Positions 7,510 through 53,157 of a stretch of DNA of 64,000 nucleotides are shown one piece after another. The DNA lies in IMG/VR virus record IMGVR_UViG_3300030103_002937, positions 1,505 through 65,504 of that record, one strand, 5' to 3'. The notes under the pieces were generated by a model that was given only the letters and a program-made list of their open reading frames with translations, had not been told where the DNA came from and did not search any database. Each line of letters begins with the position of its first letter. The first letter of the stretch is position 1. Origin of the DNA: a virus. A program made the position numbers and the translations under genes.

Positions 7510-7875
7510 TTATTTTTTTATGTTTTTGAATTCAAAGTTCACGCCCGAAATGGAAAGTTTTTCAATCACTTCTGTTTGTAAGTCGCGCAAAGTTTTTTCA
7601 ATTTTGTCTTTTTCGTCAATGATTTGCGCAACTTGTTTTTCCAAACTTTCGTTTTTCGCTTTCATTTTAGAAACTTCTTCAGGGTCTTTGCCAACAAAAG
7701 TTGCAATCACCAAAGACAACGAACCGACAAGCATTCCAACAATCACTTTGAAAATGTCGTTGTTTGATTGTGGGACTTCGTAAAAACTAAGAAACAACAA
7801 AAGTCCGATGACAAGGAAAAAAATAATTCCCGCCCCAACATACCCTCGAAATTCTTTATCTTTTTGAATGTTCAT
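7510..7875 (-). CDS. Envelope cassette protein 3: membrane + coiled coil
   Basis: 121 residues: two hydrophobic segments (GAGIIFFLVIGLLLFLSFY and DIFKVIVGMLVGSLSLVIATFVG) followed by a coiled coil (MKAKNESLEKQVAQIIDEKDKIEK) and a short beta-like tail. It is clearly homologous to the protein at 52052-52438, sharing NNDIFKVIVGMLVGSLS, the coiled coil and LRD-QTEVI-KL--SG-NF-F. The topology resembles small holin-like or spanin-like membrane proteins, but I know no named family; function is inferred only from the cassette's location and from the second copy beside lysis genes. Confidence 0.7.
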   Translation of the reverse strand: MNIQKDKEFRGYVGAGIIFFLVIGLLLFLSFYEVPQSNNDIFKVIVGMLVGSLSLVIATFVGKDPEEVSKMKAKNESLEKQVAQIIDEKDKIEKTLRDLQTEVIEKLSISGVNFEFKNIKK

Positions 7876-7876
7876 T

Positions 7877-8206
7877 TTATCTTATTTTATCAATGAAATT
7901 TTGTATTTCGTTTACATCAATGTCAAGTGAAAATGACAAATCCGCCGCCCATTGTCGAACCGGTCTTGAATCTTTATAAACAACAATTGTTGGAACGGTT
8001 TGAATTTCCGATTTTATTTTGTCGCTTTGATTTTCCAACCACGCAAATTGAACTTCGCAACCAATCAATCCATTCAGGTTGATTGTTTTATTTTGATTCC
8101 AACGGGCGTTGATTTGTAAAACTGTTATGTCGTTGTATTCAATTGGCGCATGAACTGATTTGATAGGAAAAAACAAAGCCAATAATACAAGCAACAAAGT
8201 TTTCAT
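7877..8206 (-). CDS. Envelope cassette protein 2: exported thioredoxin-like protein
   Basis: 109 residues with a signal peptide (MKTLLLVLLALFFPIKSVHA). The mature part has the spacing of a small thioredoxin fold: VLQINARWNQN, VQFAWLENQSD, then the cis-Pro-like TVPTIVVYKDSRPVRQWAADL and a C-terminal helix. The CxxC active site is absent, so it is probably not a redox enzyme. The homologue at 52466-52876 shares architecture and the (M/T)VPT-(V/I) strand. It sits one base after cassette gene 1, indicating one operon. Confidence 0.62.
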   Translation of the reverse strand: MKTLLLVLLALFFPIKSVHAPIEYNDITVLQINARWNQNKTINLNGLIGCEVQFAWLENQSDKIKSEIQTVPTIVVYKDSRPVRQWAADLSFSLDIDVNEIQNFIDKIR

Positions 8207-8207
8207 T

Positions 8208-8486
8208 TTAGTTGGTTTTTAATTCATACAAACGTGCTTCAATGATTTCAAGTTTTTCAAAGTTTTTTTCAATCAATTCCCGGTTGCTCATGACTTCATT
8301 CCGAATCATGTTGTCTTTCATGTCGAATTCCTCACGCGATATTGTGGGAACGGGTTGCAACATTGCTTCATTTATTTGTGCTTTTAAATTCCAATAAAAA
8401 CCCGTTGCGATAATAAGTCCCCCCGCCAACGAAATCATTGTTTCGATTGACATATTGAATTTAGTTTGTTTTGATAGTTCTTTCAT
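8208..8486 (-). CDS. Envelope cassette protein 1: TM anchor plus coiled coil
   Basis: 92 residues: short charged N-terminus, one TM segment (SLAGGLIIATGFYWNLKA), then a periplasmic-type helix ending VMSNRELIEKNFEKLEIIEARLYELK. The homologue at 52873-53157 shares the TM position, (P/E)-P-(I/V)SR-E(F/Y)D-KD and I--RLYE(L/I)(K/R). This is the shape of an i-spanin. It lies directly downstream of the portal gene. Confidence 0.65.
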   Translation of the reverse strand: MKELSKQTKFNMSIETMISLAGGLIIATGFYWNLKAQINEAMLQPVPTISREEFDMKDNMIRNEVMSNRELIEKNFEKLEIIEARLYELKTN

Positions 8487-13427: not shown

Positions 13428-15110
13428 TTAAAATGGTATGTTCAAATTGTCCTTTATCACTTCAAACGCTTTGTCATTTTTGTCAATAGGTTTGTAAACC
13501 CCGCCGGAATGAAAATCAGGTGCAACGTCAAAATCACCAATTTGACCGTTTTCTTTGCGCTTTACTTTTTCAATGTATATTTTCACAAGGTCTGATTTGT
13601 ACCTTGTCTTTTGTCCGATGCAACGGTAAACAATTAGACCATTATATGCTTTATTAAAAAAGTCAGCGGAACCCGAAACGTCATACAACGTTGGTTTTTT
13701 ATACACCCCATTTTCCGATTCAATTTTTCTAGGGTGCGCAACCAAAAACAAGTGGGTGTTTGTTTGTTGAACAAATTGTGTGATTTCGGAAAGTATTTTT
13801 CCAATGTAACTGAAATCCCTTTGCGCCGAATGGTCAAGCATATTAAACGGGTCAATGCAAAAAACGTTGATTCCTTTTTGAAAGACAAGTTCCCGGAACT
13901 TATTCAATATGTTTTTAAGTGTCAAATTTTCAAGGTCAATCCGAATCCAATGAAAATGTTCTTCAATAAAATCCTTTGTGTTTTCAAGGTCGTCGTTGTT
14001 GCAAATTTTGTTGTTAAGTTTGTTTGCAATTCTTTTGATATGCCCTTCGTATGGAAATGATTCCGGTGCAAACATAGCACAACGGAATCCGTATTTTGTT
14101 GCAACGTTGCAAAAGATTTGGTCAACAATGTCGGACTTTCCCGAATTTGGAACGCCGGTGACAACCGTCCATTCACCCCAAGACATTTTGAAAAATGAAT
14201 CCGATTCCGAAAGTCCAATTGAATAGTTTTGAACGCCTTTTTCATTGTATGCTAAAACGTTTTCCCAAATATCATTGACATTCAAAACGCCTTCCAACGG
14301 AAAGTTTTTCGCGCTTTTTATCACGTTTCGTAACGTTTCAGAACCTTTTGTTGTCAACACCTCGTTGGCGTCTTTAAAGTTGCCAAAATCGACGTATTTG
14401 CATCGGTGTTGTCCAAACCTTCTTGCAAGTTCATTTCGTAATTGCAACCCAGCGTCGTCGTTGTCGGTGCAAAGAACGATTTTAGTTTTGTTTTTAAAGT
14501 ATTCAAAACAGTTGTCCAAATAATCAAGTCGGGCGTTTCCTTTTGACGCCCCGTTTGGAACTGAACAAACGGAATACAATCCGGATTCATGCAATGAAAG
14601 CGCGTCCATTTCACCTTCAACAATGTAGCATGTTTTTGAATCTTTAATGTTATCAATGCCGTAAAATATAAGTTCAGCACCCGAAGTCATTTTGAAATTC
14701 TTTTCGCCGTCACGAAACTTAACGTTCACAATCTTATTGTCACGGAAGTAGTTGAAATTTATACAACGACGCTTTGAACCCACTTGCGGCATGTATTCAA
14801 GTGATTCACCAATGCGCCAATGGACAAGGGTCGGTTCAGTGATACCGCGCCCGCTAAACCATTTCAATACACGTTCGGTCACGTCGGCGTTAACTTTTTC
14901 GGGAATTGTGTATTCCGATTTCTTTTGAAACATAACACCGCCCGACCAACCGCAGTTGTGGCAATTGTAAAGTCCGGTTGAAATGTTGACCGACAATGAT
15001 TCGTCGTGTTTGTTTTTTCTATTATGCGAACACTTCGGACATTTTGTTTTTAATTCCCCGTTTGTTCTGTTCTTCAAATTTATTCCAAGGTTTGCAAGTT
15101 TTTCAATCAT
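13428..15110 (-). CDS. Bifunctional DNA primase-helicase
   Basis: 560 residues, T7 gp4-like layout. An N-terminal zinc ribbon (C24-x2-C27 ... C50-x2-C53) is followed by a TOPRIM core (YIVEGEMDALSLHESG; VLCTDNDDAGLQ) and a DnaB/RecA-type helicase with Walker A TGVPNSGKSDIVDQ and Walker B VFCIDPFN, then FLVAHPRK. It primes and unwinds DNA at the fork. It is homologous along its whole length to the protein at 43930-45654, sharing SVPNGA----LDYLDNC--YF. Main evidence for a complete replication module in phage A. Confidence 0.93.
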   Translation of the reverse strand: MIEKLANLGINLKNRTNGELKTKCPKCSHNRKNKHDESLSVNISTGLYNCHNCGWSGGVMFQKKSEYTIPEKVNADVTERVLKWFSGRGITEPTLVHWRIGESLEYMPQVGSKRRCINFNYFRDNKIVNVKFRDGEKNFKMTSGAELIFYGIDNIKDSKTCYIVEGEMDALSLHESGLYSVCSVPNGASKGNARLDYLDNCFEYFKNKTKIVLCTDNDDAGLQLRNELARRFGQHRCKYVDFGNFKDANEVLTTKGSETLRNVIKSAKNFPLEGVLNVNDIWENVLAYNEKGVQNYSIGLSESDSFFKMSWGEWTVVTGVPNSGKSDIVDQIFCNVATKYGFRCAMFAPESFPYEGHIKRIANKLNNKICNNDDLENTKDFIEEHFHWIRIDLENLTLKNILNKFRELVFQKGINVFCIDPFNMLDHSAQRDFSYIGKILSEITQFVQQTNTHLFLVAHPRKIESENGVYKKPTLYDVSGSADFFNKAYNGLIVYRCIGQKTRYKSDLVKIYIEKVKRKENGQIGDFDVAPDFHSGGVYKPIDKNDKAFEVIKDNLNIPF

Positions 15111-26899: not shown

Positions 26900-29800
26900 T
26901 TATGAATTTATTTGTGATTTTAAAGTTTGTATTTCTGTCTTCAATTCATTTATCATTTCTTGTTGTTCTTGTATTGCTTTCAATAAATATGTAGGCAAAT
27001 CACCGTATGAAACACCGTCAATTTGCGGTTCATCAAAACCTTCAACTTTATTTTTAAATGTTAGTTCAGGAATCACTTCAACAACTTCTTCAGCAATCAA
27101 ACCGGTTGTGTATTGTTGTGATTCTTTTACTTTAAATTTTACCGGGCGCAGTTTATTGATTTTGTCAATTGTGCTTTCAATATCGGTGACGTCTTCTTTG
27201 TACCTTATTGATGATGAATTGTAATACAATTCACCCGTTGTTGTGTTATATCTTACAAGCGGATTTGAATCCGAACTTCCAAGCAATGAAGGAACAAACA
27301 ACCCGCCGTCTTGTTCAATTTTAAATCTTTGGGCGTTTGAACTACCGTATGTTATTTCGAAATTAGTTGAATTTACTTTAAGTTTATATTGGACGTCTGT
27401 TCGTGCATTTCCGCTTCCGTCGCTGCAAGTTAATATAATACCTGACGCTTGCGAACTAAAACTTGTCGTTGAATCTTGCAACAATAAAGTCGCATCATTA
27501 GCTTTTGCATGCAATACTTGGGAAGGCGAACTTGTGCCAATTCCAACATTTCCAGTCCCGTCGTCAAATCGTATTCTTTCGGTTCCTGAATCCGTGAAAA
27601 TCAAATCACCGTCAACATTCACACCAAGTCCCCATTGTTCAGCGCCCGACGCTTCTTGAATTACAATTGCGGTGTTGTTTGATTTTGTTTTTACCGCAAT
27701 GTTACCGTCGGCAATGTTTCCGCTTGATTCACAATCACCAACTTCAAGTTTTGTGTTTGGCGCAGTTGTTCCGATGCCTAAATTACCTGTATTTCTTAAA
27801 GTCATTTTAGTGGCACCATTATGATTACTTCCTATTCCCCAATAAATTGTTCCGTTTGAAGAACCGTTTGTGATATAAAATGACCCCCTATTTCCAATCA
27901 TACCGTACCCGCTTATTCTTGTTTGGTTGGTGGGTGGGATTGGGTTGCCAGTATCAAGACCGTCAACAACAACTGCATTGTTAAAACTTGCGGAACCGTT
28001 GACATCAAGTTTAGTTGAAGGCAAAGCCGCCCCGATGCCAACGTTACCATTCTGTCTAATTACAAATAAATTACCGGTCCCATTTAAATCAGAAGTTGTT
28101 CCAACTGCAAATTCTTCTCCGCCTCCTAGCCCGAAAAACATACTGCCTTGAGAATTTTTTAATTCTATTGCTAGGTCTGAAGTTAGTGAAGTCTCAAATT
28201 TGCCAACTGTATTGCTTGATGTGAATACATGCAGCTTTTCACCCGGCGAAGTCGTTCCGATTCCTACATTGCCGTTGTCTTTATCAATTAAAAAATAAGT
28301 GTCGCCGCTATCTTCTGTAATTTCAAAATGTCCAGTTGAAGTTGACCTTCCTAATTCCCAATAAGTCGTTGTGCCAGTTGACAATCTTAATTGTTTATCG
28401 ACGCCGCCCATTACTTCCAATTTAGCATTTGGTGAAGTCGTACCAATTCCAACATTACCTCCTCCATTAACTAAAAATAAAGCTGGGTCTGAACCTTTTC
28501 TTATAATAAAGTCAGGTTCATTTGTTCCAGAATCCATTCTGAAATCAAAACCGCCGAAGCCATCAGAAGGTTCGTCTTGTATGCTTTCAAACCTAACATT
28601 TTGGTCAGTAACTTTAATCGACAATGCTTCTCCGGTTGTGCCTTGCCTTGTGACATAAAAAGGTGTTGTACCGGTATTTGTATTAAATATTGCTTCACCA
28701 TTTACCTCTAATTTTGCGCTTGGCGAACTTGTTCCTATCCCGACGTTACCTCCGCTATGTTGTAGAGTTAAATTGCCACCAGTATTATGAAATACTTCAA
28801 AATTACTTCTTCTTGAAACAGTTGCAAATGTTGACCCTATATTTTGTATTGTCCCTTGAGGCGTGCCTCCTTCAGAGAATTTAATACCACTAAAACTTGT
28901 AGATGTTGGATGAGTAATTTCGATATAAGACGCATCACCTTTTACTGCAAATTTTTCTCCAGGACTTGTCGTGCCGATACCAACATTAGTGCCATTGTCG
29001 AATATTTGAGAATCAGTTAATGTATTTGCATCTGACCATTTAGAAACATAATTAGTAGTTCCGCTACCGTCTAATATACTGCCGTCTGTTTCAATTACAT
29101 TGCCAGATGAATCAACCGCTAAGTTTTTAGTTGCGGTACCTGTAAATGTGCCGGAGCCATAGTTATTAAATTGTAGTTGGCCGGAAGTAGTAATCACCAC
29201 TCTGTCGTTTCCGCCGTTTGTTTGAAATCTTAATTGACTGCCGGTACTTGACCTTATGTAACTATTATTGTTGTCGTGAAATAATTGTAAATGTCTATTG
29301 TTTGTTGTGTCTTCAATTCTAATTGTTGGCGTTGTGACGTCTGCAATATGAAGTTTTGTAGCCGGGGAAGCGGTTCCAATCCCGACGTTGCCGCTTGTGT
29401 TTAAAGTCATGACAGTACTTGCGCCATTGACCTGAAGTTTTATGCCATTTCCTGATTGACCTCTGTATAATGCGTAACCACTATTCCAACTCAATTCGCC
29501 ATGACCAGCTGACGACCCCCATTTCATTACGCCGTCACCAATTATTTTTAATCTACCATTTGCGTTTATAGCAACATCACTAGTAGAAGACGTGTTTACC
29601 TGAAGTTTAGAATCAGGCGAAGTCGTTCCGATACCAACGTTGCCGGAAGAATCGATTCGCATTTTTTCACTTGCGCTTACATTAAAAGCTAAAGAATTTC
29701 CGTCATGCCTATAAATAATTTTTCCAACGTCTGAATCAATAGGGTCGCCAAATATAATTTCTCCAGTGCTTAAATTTCCACCTATTAATTCAATTTTACT

Positions 29801-31969
29801 TGAATCATAAGCGTTTGCAGTATTCGATTCAATTTTTAAAGTCGCCCCGCCTGAAGAATCATAAATATGCAAATTTCTTGCCGGCGAAGTCGTTCCGATT
29901 CCGACATATCCATTGCTTTTTTGAATTGTCATTACATCGGTTGAAGTACCGTAAGAAAAGAACCCCAATTTGTCGGTTCCCGCGCGGTATCTAATTTGCA
30001 TGTCATTGGTGTCACTTGTTTGAAAATCAATTCCCGGGTGTTCACCTGAAATACCGTTTAATCTTATAATACCTTGACCGCGCAATTCTAATTGACGACC
30101 CGGATTTGTCGTTCCGATACCAACGTTACCGCTTGAATTTATTCTTAACCGTTCCGAATAATTAGTTGACAATATTAAGTTTCCACTAGTTGAACCAATT
30201 CTCACTTGGTCAGCAGTTGAAGCGGTATTTGAAAAACAAATAAAAGAATTTGCTCCTGAAGCGCTTTCAAAACTTGCAACCATGCTAGACGAGCTTTGCT
30301 TTACATGAAATAAGCGCGCTGGTGAAGTTGTTCCGATGCCGACGTTACCGTTTAAATCTAAAGCAAACGCATCAGCGTCGGTTGACGGTCCCATTAAAAA
30401 AGTGCCACTAGCGTTTTTGAACATTCTATGCGAAATAGCATTTGAACTTGTTAAAGCTATACCGTCACTCAAAGTGTCACCGTCTTGTCGCACTATTAAA
30501 GTCCCCCCTGATGTAGCTACACCGGTTCCCCCGTTTACTTCCAATTTACCAGCCGGCGAAGTGGTACCGATTCCTACGTTGTTTGTGTCTTTTTGCAAAA
30601 ACAACCCGGTTGTCCCGTCAGCCCTTAAATGTAATGAATTCCAACCGTTGCCAGAAACATCATGCGCATCTATTCCAAATTCGTCAGCCCCTCGAATATA
30701 AAATCGAACACCAGTAGAGGTATTGCCAATTCTTACATTGTCATTGACCTGCAATTTAGCATTTGGCGAAATTGTTCCGATGCCGACGTTTCCTGCGTTT
30801 GTTAATGTAAGTACATCACCCCCACTAAAAGTACTAAACCTAAAACCATTTCCGTTTTTGCCTTTAATATAATTCCAAGTGCCGTCAGCACCCATTGTCA
30901 TTCTATCGCTTTCAGAAAGTTGAAGACCGAATGATTCTGTTCCGCCATTTATAGTAAGCTCTTGGTCAGGCGAATTCGTTCCTACACCTAGCCGTGTATT
31001 TGCTTCGTCTACAAATAATGTAGCTGATTCAATTGTATTACCTGTGGAACCTATAAGAACTTTTCCCGGCGTTACGTTTGGTAAATCATTTGTTTCTGAC
31101 TTAACCGAAAATACTAAACTACCTGATGAGTTTACAAAGCCAACCTCCCCTAAATTTTGTATAAGATTCCCTTGTATGGGTTTGGTAGTTGTAATTGCTG
31201 CACCAGTCGATCCGCTTGGTTTTACATATATAGGTTGCCCTGCGCTTGGGGTAACACTATCTATAGATGATGTATTTAACCCTGTTAGATTTCCTACAAC
31301 GATTGCATGACCAGTAGCATTATTAGCTAAATTTGTTTCTAGTATTCCAACCGCTGGCATTTTTGCAGCATTAGACGCGTCAGCTAATTGCACCTCTACT
31401 GGTTCAGCGGCCGTTGCTCCTGATATAAACACAGGGTCTCCTTTTGTAAGACTTGAGCCTTGTTTATTTGTAACTTGTATTTTTGTAATTCCAGCACTTC
31501 CAATATGCAGAGAACTTAAGTTTGCAAAAGTAAGCTCGCCATTTGCTCCTGAAAGCAGTAATTGATTTGCTGCACCTAAGGTATTAGTTGTATCTTTTAC
31601 AGGCCCGTTTAAATATAATGTACCTGTTTGCGTTATTAAGTCAGTGCTTGCGTCACCTAATGTAACATTCCCATTTAACGTGCTAACACCCGTAACCGTA
31701 AGACTTGTATCAAAAGTTGCAGCTGCATCTACATTTAATTGGCCTGCTACTGTTAATATTGTAGCTCCGGCGTTTTGCGAAACTATAGAATTAACAACGT
31801 TATCACCACCGGCCCCAAACATTGCAATGGTATTTTCTGTACCATTTATAAAGTCATTAAATAGGTTATCGACTGTTATGTGTATATTTTGGTTACCGTC
31901 GTACCCAACTAAATACATGCCTGACGTGTGGTCGGTTCTTAGATTAAACTGTGAAAACTTTATTGCCAT
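26900..31969 (-). CDS. Giant tail fibre with C-terminal S74 chaperone (probable A/B hybrid)
   Basis: 1689 residues. Residues about 1-330 are an N-terminal anchor region with Ala/Thr/Leu-rich modules (DNVVNSIVSQNAGATILTVAG). About 15 NVGIGTTSP-type modules then repeat every 50-100 residues. The C-terminus (SIRYKEDVTDIESTIDKINKLRPVKFKVK ... TGLIAEEVVEVIPEL, ending in a coiled coil) is a peptidase-S74 intramolecular chaperone that trimerises the fibre and cuts itself off before the Ser-Ile junction. The start and upstream genes belong to phage B, the end and downstream genes to phage A; base usage shifts inside. Confidence 0.8.
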   Translation of the reverse strand: MAIKFSQFNLRTDHTSGMYLVGYDGNQNIHITVDNLFNDFINGTENTIAMFGAGGDNVVNSIVSQNAGATILTVAGQLNVDAAATFDTSLTVTGVSTLNGNVTLGDASTDLITQTGTLYLNGPVKDTTNTLGAANQLLLSGANGELTFANLSSLHIGSAGITKIQVTNKQGSSLTKGDPVFISGATAAEPVEVQLADASNAAKMPAVGILETNLANNATGHAIVVGNLTGLNTSSIDSVTPSAGQPIYVKPSGSTGAAITTTKPIQGNLIQNLGEVGFVNSSGSLVFSVKSETNDLPNVTPGKVLIGSTGNTIESATLFVDEANTRLGVGTNSPDQELTINGGTESFGLQLSESDRMTMGADGTWNYIKGKNGNGFRFSTFSGGDVLTLTNAGNVGIGTISPNAKLQVNDNVRIGNTSTGVRFYIRGADEFGIDAHDVSGNGWNSLHLRADGTTGLFLQKDTNNVGIGTTSPAGKLEVNGGTGVATSGGTLIVRQDGDTLSDGIALTSSNAISHRMFKNASGTFLMGPSTDADAFALDLNGNVGIGTTSPARLFHVKQSSSSMVASFESASGANSFICFSNTASTADQVRIGSTSGNLILSTNYSERLRINSSGNVGIGTTNPGRQLELRGQGIIRLNGISGEHPGIDFQTSDTNDMQIRYRAGTDKLGFFSYGTSTDVMTIQKSNGYVGIGTTSPARNLHIYDSSGGATLKIESNTANAYDSSKIELIGGNLSTGEIIFGDPIDSDVGKIIYRHDGNSLAFNVSASEKMRIDSSGNVGIGTTSPDSKLQVNTSSTSDVAINANGRLKIIGDGVMKWGSSAGHGELSWNSGYALYRGQSGNGIKLQVNGASTVMTLNTSGNVGIGTASPATKLHIADVTTPTIRIEDTTNNRHLQLFHDNNNSYIRSSTGSQLRFQTNGGNDRVVITTSGQLQFNNYGSGTFTGTATKNLAVDSSGNVIETDGSILDGSGTTNYVSKWSDANTLTDSQIFDNGTNVGIGTTSPGEKFAVKGDASYIEITHPTSTSFSGIKFSEGGTPQGTIQNIGSTFATVSRRSNFEVFHNTGGNLTLQHSGGNVGIGTSSPSAKLEVNGEAIFNTNTGTTPFYVTRQGTTGEALSIKVTDQNVRFESIQDEPSDGFGGFDFRMDSGTNEPDFIIRKGSDPALFLVNGGGNVGIGTTSPNAKLEVMGGVDKQLRLSTGTTTYWELGRSTSTGHFEITEDSGDTYFLIDKDNGNVGIGTTSPGEKLHVFTSSNTVGKFETSLTSDLAIELKNSQGSMFFGLGGGEEFAVGTTSDLNGTGNLFVIRQNGNVGIGAALPSTKLDVNGSASFNNAVVVDGLDTGNPIPPTNQTRISGYGMIGNRGSFYITNGSSNGTIYWGIGSNHNGATKMTLRNTGNLGIGTTAPNTKLEVGDCESSGNIADGNIAVKTKSNNTAIVIQEASGAEQWGLGVNVDGDLIFTDSGTERIRFDDGTGNVGIGTSSPSQVLHAKANDATLLLQDSTTSFSSQASGIILTCSDGSGNARTDVQYKLKVNSTNFEITYGSSNAQRFKIEQDGGLFVPSLLGSSDSNPLVRYNTTTGELYYNSSSIRYKEDVTDIESTIDKINKLRPVKFKVKESQQYTTGLIAEEVVEVIPELTFKNKVEGFDEPQIDGVSYGDLPTYLLKAIQEQQEMINELKTEIQTLKSQINS
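29292..29359. repeat. 68-bp exact repeat, internal copy
   Basis: Exact match to the first 68 bases of the window, within one VGIGTASP module of the fibre gene. Candidate join point between the two phage genomes. Confidence 0.9.
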
Positions 31970-36699: not shown

Positions 36700-36893
36700 T
36701 TGTGTGATTAAAGGCGTAATTCCTTAGCGGGATGCGAGAAACGGCTCGATGAACACAACAGAGGGGCAAGAGATGCGGGTTACACACCGGTAAATGGCGC
36801 GCGGCCCCTCACTGGGCGTGAAATGGGTAGACAAGAAATAGGAGGCGAAAGCCACACTAACTTGTAACGCAGGTTCGATTCCTGCCACGTCCA
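36699..36893 (+). ncRNA. Candidate structured RNA with tRNA-like 3' domain
   Basis: Three successive closed domains fill the gap. Domain 1: 7-bp GTTGTGT/ACACAAC (36699-36705, 36753-36759) enclosing two hairpins (AAGG/CCTT with 7-nt loop; CGAG/CTCG). Domain 2: 7-bp GAGGGGC/GCCCCTC (36761-36767, 36804-36810). Domain 3: a 7-bp GGGCGTG/CACGTCC acceptor-like stem (36814-36820, 36886-36892), a stemless AAATGGGTAG segment, 5-bp ACAAG/CTTGT with a 25-nt loop holding GGC-GAAA-GCC, and a canonical T arm GCAGG-TTCGATT-CCTGC. G+C is above the flanks. A standard tRNA is excluded by the loop and missing D stem. Confidence 0.6.
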
Positions 36894-36908
36894 CTAAAAT
36901 TATAAATT

Positions 36909-43929: not shown

Positions 43930-45654
43930 ATGCAAGTAAACAATTCGGAGATCAATGGATTTTTGATTGACCAGTTTAATCAACATGACCTAGATGTGGG
44001 TAAGACGCAGGGGATTTGTCCTCTGTGCTCTCACACAAGGAAACCTGAGAATAAGAAACAAAAGTGCGCTTCTTACGATTGGGAACGGGGTCTCGGAACT
44101 TGCCATAATTGTGATCGCACATTTCAAATGCACACGTATCAGCGTAAAGGGGCGAGCGAAAAAGTATATGTTCGCCCTGAAACGCCTGATGCTATACACA
44201 ATGTTTCGACTAATGTTGAAACGTGGTTTGAATCGCGAGGCATATCAAAGCATACACTTAAAGCGCTCAAAGTAACCGAGGGTCAAGAGTTTATGCCACA
44301 AACCGGTAAGACCGAGAATACCATACAGTTTAATTACTATATGGGCGATCAACTCATAAATGTAAAATACAGAGACGGTCGTAAGAACTTTAAGTTATAT
44401 AAGGGTGCCGAAAAGGTTTTCTATAATATAAACAGTATCGTAGGATATGAGTATTGTATTATTGTAGAAGGTGAAATGGACGCCCTTTCTTTATATGAAG
44501 CAGGTATTGAAAACGTAATATCAGTTCCTAACGGTGCAACACTAAATAATAACAATCTTGATTACTTAGATAACTGTATTGATTACTTTACAGACAAAGA
44601 AAAGATTATTATAGCTGTTGACTCAGACGAGGCTGGACAAGCATTGCAAACAGAGCTTGTTCGTCGTTTAGGTGCTGAAGTATGTTACCTTGCTGATTTT
44701 AATGGTTGCAAAGACGCAAATGAATATTTATTAGAATATGGAAAAGAAGAGCTTGCAAAGCGTATTACAAAAGCAAGACCGGTACCCCTTGAAAACGTCA
44801 CAACTTTCAAAGACATTGAGAATGAAGTTACTGACTTCGTTACTAATGGGTTCAAGCCCGGTTATCAAGTCGGGTTGGAAAATTTTGATGATATCTTTTC
44901 AACTTACACTGGTCAATTTATTACTGTTACTGGTATACCTTCTTCCGGTAAGAGTGACTTCGTCGATCAAATGGTCGTTGGATATAACTCGAACTATGGT
45001 TGGAAGACAGCGTTTGCTAGTCCAGAAAATGCGCCAACTTATTTACATGCCCATAAACTAATGCGTAAGACGTGGCAAGATATGCCACGTAAATCAGATA
45101 TCGGTACAGATAAATGGAATCAGGTAGCTGAACATGTAAATGATAATTACTTCTTTATTGATATGGAGCGTTACACTCTTGAAGCCGTACTTCGTAAAGG
45201 AGCAGAGCTTGTTAAGCGTAAAGGTATCAAATGTTTAGTAATAGACCCATTTAATAAGATACGTGATGTTGATGCGGTTTCTGATGATGTAAATAGATAT
45301 ACAATGGACTATTTACAAAAGATTGAAATCTTTGCTAAGAAATATGATGTATTAGTTTTTATTGTCGCTCACCCTACAAAAATGTATAAAGGTTCTGACG
45401 GACAAATAGAAGAACCTACAATGTACAATATAAAAGGCGGCGGCGAATGGTATGATGCTTCCTATCACGGTATATTAGTTCATAGAAATTATGAAGCTAA
45501 AACTGTCAAAGCTAAGGTGTTGAAAGTAAAGTTTCAAAACTTAGGTGAAAATGGTGCTGAAGCACATTTTAAATGGGAACCAAAGTCAGGTTGTTTTATA
45601 CCTCACAGAGATATGGTCGTTAATGATGACCCGTTACCATGGGAAGCGGGCTAA
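43930..45654 (+). CDS. Bifunctional DNA primase-helicase
   Basis: 574 residues. Zinc ribbon (CPLCSHTRKP...; GTCHNCDRTF), TOPRIM (CIIVEGEMDALSLYEAG; IIAVDSDEAGQ) and helicase with Walker A TGIPSSGKSDFVDQM, Walker B CLVIDPFNKI and the ALVFIVAHPTKM-type sensor. Homologous to phage A's enzyme over its full length (SVPNGAT-N--LDYLDNC). It drives replication-fork progression in phage B. Confidence 0.93.
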   Translation: MQVNNSEINGFLIDQFNQHDLDVGKTQGICPLCSHTRKPENKKQKCASYDWERGLGTCHNCDRTFQMHTYQRKGASEKVYVRPETPDAIHNVSTNVETWFESRGISKHTLKALKVTEGQEFMPQTGKTENTIQFNYYMGDQLINVKYRDGRKNFKLYKGAEKVFYNINSIVGYEYCIIVEGEMDALSLYEAGIENVISVPNGATLNNNNLDYLDNCIDYFTDKEKIIIAVDSDEAGQALQTELVRRLGAEVCYLADFNGCKDANEYLLEYGKEELAKRITKARPVPLENVTTFKDIENEVTDFVTNGFKPGYQVGLENFDDIFSTYTGQFITVTGIPSSGKSDFVDQMVVGYNSNYGWKTAFASPENAPTYLHAHKLMRKTWQDMPRKSDIGTDKWNQVAEHVNDNYFFIDMERYTLEAVLRKGAELVKRKGIKCLVIDPFNKIRDVDAVSDDVNRYTMDYLQKIEIFAKKYDVLVFIVAHPTKMYKGSDGQIEEPTMYNIKGGGEWYDASYHGILVHRNYEAKTVKAKVLKVKFQNLGENGAEAHFKWEPKSGCFIPHRDMVVNDDPLPWEAG

Positions 45655-51755: not shown

Positions 51756-52052
51756 TTATTTGAATCTTTTTTCAATTCTATTCATTTTCTTTTCTTTTCT
51801 TTTAGCAAGTCTTTCGCTAGCTTTGCCTTTCTTTATAACTTCTCTGTTATTTTTTTGATACGAAACACTACCATCATTAAGTGCAAATAAAGATATAACT
51901 TTCTTACCAGTATCTAAACTTCTAAAGTATTGAGCACTACCGTCTTCAGAAGTTATTACACCCTTATTTGTGTATAATGCTCTATAACCTTTTCCGTTAT
52001 CTACTTCTTTATTCGTAGAGGTTGATTGTATATTAAATTTACCGTTTCTCAT
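51756..52052 (-). CDS. Hypothetical basic protein
   Basis: 98 residues. Beta-type middle (YRALYTNKGVITSEDGSAQYFRSLDTGKKV...SVSYQKNNRE) and a Lys/Arg helical tail (SERLAKRKEKKMNRIEKRFK). Last gene of the B minus-strand operon, sharing one base with the next gene upstream. Family unknown. Confidence 0.5.
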   Translation of the reverse strand: MRNGKFNIQSTSTNKEVDNGKGYRALYTNKGVITSEDGSAQYFRSLDTGKKVISLFALNDGSVSYQKNNREVIKKGKASERLAKRKEKKMNRIEKRFK

Positions 52053-52438
52053 TATTTCTTTACTTCAAATTTAAAATTCTTACCTGACACAGCAAGCTTA
52101 TCAATTACTTCAGTTTGCGTATCGCGCAGTAGTCTTTCAAGTTTATCTTTTTCTATAACCATACCGGCTACTTTATCTTCTAGCGCTTCGTTTTTTGCTT
52201 TTAGTGATTCTAACTCTTCAGGATTCTTACCTATAAAAGTATATATCACCACACTTAAAGAACCAACAAGCATACCGACAATAACTTTAAATATATCATT
52301 ATTTGTTTCCGGTATTTCTTTAAAGGCTAAAAATAATAATAAACCCATAACCATTGCAAATACTGTTGCAGCGCCTATGTAACCCCTCATTTCTTTGTTT
52401 CTAAACATTTGTTTTATTTTAGCATAAGCCGCAGCCAA
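52052..52438 (-). CDS. Envelope cassette protein 3, phage B copy
   Basis: 128 residues (a start at the 11th codon, MFRNKEMRGYIG, would align with the phage A copy). TM segments YIGAATVFAMVMGLLLFLAF and DIFKVIVGMLVGSLSVVIYT, then coiled coil (AKNEALEDKVAGMVIEKDKL). About half of the residues match 7510-7875, including NNDIFKVIVGMLVGSLS and SGKNFKF. In phage B it closes a cassette next to an outer membrane protein and an endolysin. Confidence 0.7.
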   Translation of the reverse strand: MAAAYAKIKQMFRNKEMRGYIGAATVFAMVMGLLLFLAFKEIPETNNDIFKVIVGMLVGSLSVVIYTFIGKNPEELESLKAKNEALEDKVAGMVIEKDKLERLLRDTQTEVIDKLAVSGKNFKFEVKK

Positions 52439-52465: not shown

Positions 52466-52876
52466 TTAAAAATTTGATGCTAAGTTAATTTCATTTATTG
52501 CTTCTTGTATTTCAGCCAACCCCACAGGAAGCGTAAGGTCAAGACCTGCTTTAAATATTTTTTCCATACTACCAGACTTAAAAATAAGCACAGTAGGTAC
52601 CATTCGAACCCTATACTTTTTTTTAGCTTGTGGTGCCGTAGATATATCAACTCTATAATATGATGCATTTTCTATTTTATCCCATTCGTTAAAACAATTT
52701 GCTTCATTAAATTTAGCCCAGAATTCAACAACTATTGTGCCATCATTATCATCACCAAAAGCATTATCGTTACTTATTGTTTGGTCAAAGTTGCTATCAT
52801 CAATCCAGTATTTTGCCGGCACGTCGGATTGTGCGTGTGCTAAAGCACTTATAAGCAGTAGTATTAAAGTTCTCAT
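52466..52876 (-). CDS. Envelope cassette protein 2, phage B copy (thioredoxin-like)
   Basis: 136 residues with a short signal peptide (MRTLILLLISALAHA) and a thioredoxin-like arrangement: GTIVVEFWAKFNEANCFNEWDKI, YRVDISTAPQ, RVRMVPTVLIFKSGSMEKIFKAGLD. The single Cys and lack of CxxC argue against redox activity. It corresponds to 7877-8206 in position, export signal and VPT strand. One copy lies in each phage. Confidence 0.6.
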   Translation of the reverse strand: MRTLILLLISALAHAQSDVPAKYWIDDSNFDQTISNDNAFGDDNDGTIVVEFWAKFNEANCFNEWDKIENASYYRVDISTAPQAKKKYRVRMVPTVLIFKSGSMEKIFKAGLDLTLPVGLAEIQEAINEINLASNF

Positions 52877-53157
52877 TGATTTTTTCTTATTTCGTATAAA
52901 CGCCCGTCTATTTTTTCTAACTCTTCTAGTATTTTGTCAACATCTTCTTGTGTGTCCATGATTGTTTGACGAACTAATTCGTCTTTTAAATCATATTCCG
53001 TTCTTGAGATAACCGGCTCTGGAAGTTCTTTAGCGAGAGCTATATCGGATTTTAAAGTAAAATACATAGTAGCTAAAGATACTGCGCCACCTATAATTAT
53101 ACCTATTGTCTTCAGATCAAGAGTTACTTTTGTGTTTTCCCCTATTTGCTGTGCCAT
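52873..53157 (-). CDS. Envelope cassette protein 1, phage B copy
   Basis: 94 residues: polar start, TM segment (LKTIGIIIGGAVSLATMYFT), then helix ending EEDVDKI-type coiled coil and RLYEIRKN. Matches 8208-8486 at ISRTEYDLKDELVR and the C-terminal RLYE. Coupled by 4-nt overlap to cassette gene 2. Shape fits an inner-membrane spanin subunit. Confidence 0.65.
   Translation of the reverse strand: MAQQIGENTKVTLDLKTIGIIIGGAVSLATMYFTLKSDIALAKELPEPVISRTEYDLKDELVRQTIMDTQEDVDKILEELEKIDGRLYEIRKNQ

Follow-up and report, generated by a model that had tools for sequence, protein, structure and literature searches.

Two loci in one viral record carry the same three envelope genes in otherwise unrelated layouts, which raises the question of how the set came to be there twice and what it does. 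The window analysed here is the whole stretch of 64 kb, which lies inside a 92,966-bp IMG/VR record. An initial sequence-only reading had listed, at both loci, a transmembrane (TM) coiled-coil protein (TMcc), an exported thioredoxin-like protein without CxxC (Trx) and a two-TM coiled-coil protein (TM2), and had suggested that the three were transferred together and form one complex of the inner membrane and periplasm, such as a spanin, a holin or an exclusion system.

Two copies of the cassette in a record that joins two phages

The open reading frames and their homology confirmed the same three minus-strand genes at both loci, TMcc being followed by Trx and then by TM2 (Table 1). Copy A interrupts the portal-MuF order, as had been proposed, with gaps of 1 nt between its three genes and to the flanking portal and MuF genes; its relatives keep the order portal-TMcc-Trx-TM2-MuF, with 75-98% identity in TMcc. 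Copy B had been described as adjoining an outer-membrane protein (OMP) and an endolysin. Both are present, but "adjoining" is too weak, as they form with the cassette a coupled unit, M15-OMP-TMcc-Trx, with overlaps of 4, 1 and 4 nt.

Table 1. Cassette genes and lysis-related genes of phages A and B, with positions in the window
Feature	Position	Strand	Description
3TM holin (phage A)	716-1234	-	phrog_3427 holin, 4.2e-9 (profile)
Amidase endolysin (phage A)	1137-1574	-	Assigned from its translation by reading; 6 kb from the cassette, same strand
TM2 copy A	7510-7875	-	121 aa; two-TM hairpin, C-terminal cytoplasmic coiled coil; candidate holin-/antiholin-like accessory
Trx copy A	7877-8206	-	109 aa; predicted exported, thioredoxin-like, no CxxC, non-aromatic C terminus DKIR
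TMcc copy A	8208-8486	-	92 aa; one N-terminal TM, predicted periplasmic coiled coil, i-spanin-like topology
TM2 copy B	52052-52438	-	128-aa ORF with TTG start; internal ATG gives ~118 aa; real start likely near 52408
Trx copy B	52466-52876	-	136 aa; predicted exported thioredoxin fold, no CxxC, C-terminal ASNF
TMcc copy B	52873-53157	-	94 aa
OMP (phage B)	53157-54350	-	Outer-membrane beta-barrel with signal peptide, linked to TMcc-Trx
M15 peptidase endolysin (phage B)	54347-54805	-	Heads the coupled B operon; Peptidase_M15_3 1.2e-15; phrog_894 endolysin 1.2e-27

Between the two loci, TM2 is 65% identical (E 2e-56), TMcc 35% (E 3e-22) and Trx approximately 22%, which is weak as a pair (E 6e-6); comparison of the two Trx sub-families by hhalign gave a probability of 93.9% and an E-value of 1.6e-7. 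By these sequence comparisons all three pairs are confirmed as homologous beyond chance, Trx clearly so by profile comparison alone. The unequal identities argue against a recent joint transfer of the three genes, and this part of the earlier proposal did not hold.

The two layouts proved to be those of two phages, A and B. By protein matching, window positions ~1571-26359 are colinear with an A-like record (G024) and the proteins from 47650 onward match a B-like record (G001), the two sides going to their respective records nearly without exception; a shorter A-like record of 29.1 kb (G030) is a circular permutation of A alone. A 2.17-kb tail-fibre segment, 99% alike, is common to both phages and joins them, the regions concerned being window 26900-31969 and the record ends (L003 and L005). 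At the fibre join the present record runs from the start of the B fibre through the 2.17-kb repeat to the end of the A fibre, and another record (G027) shows the reciprocal join, from the start of the A fibre through the same repeat to the end of the B fibre. A run of 10 Ns near the left end, together with the tail-fibre repeats, had also pointed to an A/B junction. The presence of A and B in one record is more simply explained by a chimeric assembly; alternatively, they may be a true cointegrate, since both this record and G027 show cross-joins only. As the record joins two phages via the fibre repeat, duplication or co-transfer inside one phage was ruled out as the origin of the cassette pair. 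None of the related records searched has more than one full-length TMcc or TM2.

The host of phage B is probably a flavobacterium or other member of the Bacteroidota, because its terminase is related to those of Flavobacterium 'elemo' and Cellulophaga podophages. Phage B also encodes a GroEL-like chaperonin (L005:8396-9946, contig 87395-88945), as do its annotated relatives. Primase-helicase-like genes are present in both phages (window 13428-15110 and 43930-45654), and the B copy shares 39% identity with a protein encoded by G024. A tmRNA-like match on the plus strand at 36814-36896 scored 34.7 bits against an Rfam cut-off of 47 (E 2e-11) and has a tRNA-like T arm at its end; ARAGORN gave no prediction there.

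A fixed TMcc-Trx core among lysis genes

Locus-derived profiles found TMcc and Trx side by side 115 times, in 107 cases no more than 4 nt apart, with a median gap of -1 nt. The pair is held by 243 locus entries (90 once near-copies were removed) and was recovered from TMcc, OMP and Trx_A seeds, and from TM2 seeds in about half of the loci. TMcc-Trx is therefore a fixed core, a near-obligate pair. TM2 is a swappable accessory and not core: it often occurred without either partner, approximately half of the TM2-seeded loci having no detected TMcc or Trx, and it can occupy the position between Trx and the endolysin that the OMP has elsewhere (L304 versus L285). The sequence-only reading had named families that always occur singly as the observation that would count against a complex; TMcc and Trx do not occur in this way, and TM2 does so in part. 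With TM2 facultative, the three genes as one fixed unit were ruled out.

Endolysins close to the core belong to four families, M15 (M15_3), Amidase_2, Amidase_2 with PG_binding_1, and DUF5675, the last being a putative lysis enzyme only, and the nearby holin is either the 3TM protein (phrog_3427, 5e-20) or Phage_holin_4_1. The layouts seen include OMP-TMcc-Trx-M15, TMcc-Trx-OMP-M15/amidase-3TM holin and TMcc-Trx-TM2-amidase-3TM holin, as well as OMP-less TMcc-Trx-M15-3TM loci, and one locus (L276) is a complete overlapping lysis operon, TMcc-Trx-OMP-M15-3TM. An endolysin is located within 2.5 kb of the core in 41 of the 54 non-redundant full-length loci with enough flank, and the core directly abuts it in 14 of the 54, where 7.4 would be expected by chance among the 41; closeness to endolysins is therefore clear and strict adjacency modest, with counts that are not fully independent because related phages share synteny. 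In phage A there is no OMP, and the cassette is located between portal and MuF, ~6 kb from the amidase; the amidases that adjoin TM2 in relatives score as Amidase_2. Searches of Pfam, PHROGs, NCBIfam and PADLOC gave no confident functional name except for the Trx fold and the lysis neighbours. That the cassette belongs to the lysis module is well supported, and we regard it as very probable. The proposal of a spanin or holin complex across the inner membrane and periplasm was thus right in direction, given the four endolysin families, the holins and the predicted topologies, but the unit is not the three genes first proposed, and nothing observed spoke for the exclusion system.

The OMP beta-barrel is the usual third partner of TMcc-Trx. 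Of 79 OMP-seeded loci, 77 hold both TMcc and Trx and the remaining two are cut by contig ends; 69 of 81 OMP-TMcc pairs are no more than 4 nt apart. The AlphaFold2 model of the OMP is rich in long strands at moderate confidence (mean pLDDT 77, pTM 0.66), and its Foldseek matches are outer-membrane barrels with low TM-scores. Its best structural match in BFVD is a phage-encoded outer-membrane barrel (A0A516LKJ4, E 4.8e-27), which shares the beta-barrel fold, and there were no sequence relatives of the OMP among 50,697 phage records. In many loci an 82-aa two-TM protein without a family match stands beside the OMP cassette (L131:8029-8277, cluster c9) and is a possible holin candidate.

Trx is predicted to be exported from its hydrophobic N terminus, and neither a CxxC motif nor a lipobox was found in any of 117 relatives, in line with the original description of an exported thioredoxin-like protein without CxxC. 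For copy B a thioredoxin fold is supported by Pfam Thioredoxin (1.6e-6), a PDB profile match and an AlphaFold2 model (pLDDT 86.5) with Foldseek support; copy A, whose own comparison is weak, is assigned this fold mainly by homology to copy B. The protein resembles the thioredoxin family (Pfam PF00085) in its fold and cis-proline loop, and differs from it in being phage-borne, exported by prediction and devoid of CxxC.

The C-terminal residue of Trx follows the presence of the OMP. It is aromatic in 124 of the 126 distinct Trx proteins with an OMP within 2.5 kb and non-aromatic in 28 of the 30 without a detected OMP; the two aromatic proteins of the latter group are at cut contig ends, where an OMP is possibly missing. 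The two non-aromatic OMP-linked proteins are second copies, of the OMP-less class, in two loci that each also have an aromatic copy (L281 and L284). In these (L281:3357-6286 and L284:1-2978) one OMP is flanked by two TMcc-Trx pairs; a terminal Phe is present in the first Trx, located upstream of the OMP, and not in the second. The correlation maps to a single change on a tree built from the first 90 Trx sequences and is therefore not statistically independent. This pattern of tails suggests a contact between Trx and the OMP. The aromatic end resembles the C-terminal signal of outer-membrane proteins.

Comparison with known spanins and holins

TMcc has one TM segment in 135 of 143 relatives and a more positive N-side in 128, which, by hydropathy and charge only, predicts an N-in/C-out topology; copy A falls slightly below the TM threshold applied. 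By this prediction, TMcc is an inner-membrane protein of type II with a periplasmic coiled coil, like an i-spanin, the coiled coil being short at ~40 residues. At least 528 stretches in IMG/VR encode TMcc. Six matches were found in GTDB genomes, all on MAG contigs (L379-L384) labelled Bacteroidetes, Woesearchaeota, Alpha- and Gammaproteobacteria, which are probably phage contigs binned into MAGs.

The resemblance to lambda Rz/Rz1 extends to the genes: the partner gene overlaps by a few nucleotides with endolysin and holin close by, so that TMcc-Trx has the overlapping or adjacent arrangement of a spanin pair. It differs in that there is no outer-membrane lipoprotein, the partner being a thioredoxin-fold protein that is exported and usually accompanied by a beta-barrel OMP. 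Trx does not have the lipobox of a two-component o-spanin, and no cassette protein combines an N-terminal lipobox with a C-terminal TM as in unimolecular spanins such as T1 gp11, with which the cassette, made of separate proteins, shares its proposed role in outer-membrane disruption. The cassette is outside the known spanin classes because their defining lipoprotein feature was looked for and is absent.

When phages A and B and records G001, G012, G019 and G024 were scanned for lipoboxes with our own regular expression, rather than a trained predictor, no credible lipoprotein emerged; a few matches in B were set aside on visual inspection because they were out of frame or had several TMs. Lipoproteins are encoded in several other records that carry the cassette, and in approximately 16-20 loci a small lipoprotein-like gene near the cassette (L164:4003-4440, cluster c20) could substitute for an o-spanin in those phages. 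A scan for signal and TM segments on the coding strand of phage A and its relative G030 returned TMcc, Trx, TM2 and one short, likely spurious ORF; the 3TM holin of phage A was absent from this output and came from the profile search.

TM2 has two TM segments in all 91 relatives, with positive charge on the N and C sides and not in the loop, a topology that hydropathy and charge only predict to be that of class II holins (N-in/C-in). It is next to an endolysin in 25 of 80 loci (5.1 expected), though not in phage A. Unlike class II holins it has a long cytoplasmic coiled coil, unusually high conservation and frequent company of a 3TM holin, and it gave no confident family match. No TM2 was found in GTDB genomes.

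In one survey, unimolecular spanins are the sole class reported for Bacteroidetes phages (PMC12596118). Annotations of isolated flavophages include endolysins, holins and some spanins, and the main text of that study uses neither the word thioredoxin nor the term outer membrane (PMC8776804). The cassette was absent from the cultured relatives examined by profile search (five related phage regions), of which phi46:3 has instead an overlapping i-spanin-like/lipoprotein-like pair after its endolysin. Tblastn searches of INPHARED with TM2 or OMP as the query revealed no cultured phage or prophage with the cassette, one run giving chance matches only.

Outer-membrane disruption as the probable role

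We propose, with a probability of about 0.55, that TMcc-Trx, in most cases together with the OMP, forms the part of the lysis module that disrupts the outer membrane, spanin-like and free of lipoprotein, in lytic phages whose hosts are probably Bacteroidota. TMcc would be an inner-membrane protein of N-in/C-out orientation with a periplasmic coiled coil, and the exported Trx, which has lost its redox motif, would act as a binding adaptor. The OMP would insert into the outer membrane, where Trx could touch it, or its assembly machinery, via the C-terminal aromatic residue that correlates with it. When the holin (the 3TM protein, Phage_holin_4_1 or possibly TM2) lets the cytoplasmic endolysin out and the peptidoglycan is cut, the TMcc-Trx-OMP bridge would, by analogy with lambda Rz/Rz1, collapse and fuse or tear the outer membrane. 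In A-type phages, which have no OMP, TMcc-Trx might recruit an outer-membrane partner from the host or act on the membrane itself, the weakest step of the scheme. The stronger claim, that a three-layer bridge of an inner-membrane coiled coil, a redox-dead periplasmic thioredoxin and a phage beta-barrel replacing the o-spanin lipoprotein gives tailed phages a third way to breach the outer membrane, is tentative and somewhat doubtful; these phages may also carry outer-membrane-disruption genes of another type.

The same position in lysis cassettes would suit a regulator of lysis timing, in which Trx and TMcc act on the holin as a periplasmic sensor or antiholin, in the manner of T4 RI and its target, holin T, while signals from outside the cell are passed on by the OMP. 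TM2 adjoins the endolysin and 3TM holin in many phages, and an outer-membrane partner could sense an infecting phage; however, the cassette accompanies different holin families (3TM and Phage_holin_4_1), which argues against one specific holin target and makes this role unlikely. Slightly less likely again is superinfection exclusion or envelope remodelling, with OMP, TMcc and Trx masking or replacing surface receptors late in infection. A phage-made surface barrel with an envelope-spanning partner could serve this, but the cassette is near an endolysin in many phages and is linked to endolysin or holin genes through overlapping codons, and PADLOC returned weak matches to TM2 alone, the best to a 4TM effector, with no model matching the rest of the cassette.

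If TMcc and Trx were instead dedicated chaperones that fold or deliver an OMP of lysis-unrelated function, the nearly invariable aromatic end of OMP-linked Trx, like an outer-membrane-protein signal, would be accounted for; this is improbable, as A-type phages and TMcc-Trx-M15-3TM loci have the TMcc-Trx pair but no OMP. That the proteins are virion components, as the location between portal and MuF in phage A might indicate, is very improbable given the predicted Sec-type signals that would direct Trx and OMP to the periplasm and the placement of the genes in lysis cassettes in other phages.

In the survey by Kongari et al., no spanin could be recognised in approximately 13% of the phages, and these authors raised the idea, giving no example, that an OMP might serve as o-spanin in such phages (PMC6139136). 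The cassette, previously undescribed and present in many uncultured viruses that are mostly marine and have Bacteroidota as their probable hosts, is a concrete and widespread candidate for this idea. If outer-membrane disruption is its role, escape through the outer membrane would be explained for many of these uncultured phages, and the question of whether an OMP can serve as o-spanin would become directly testable.
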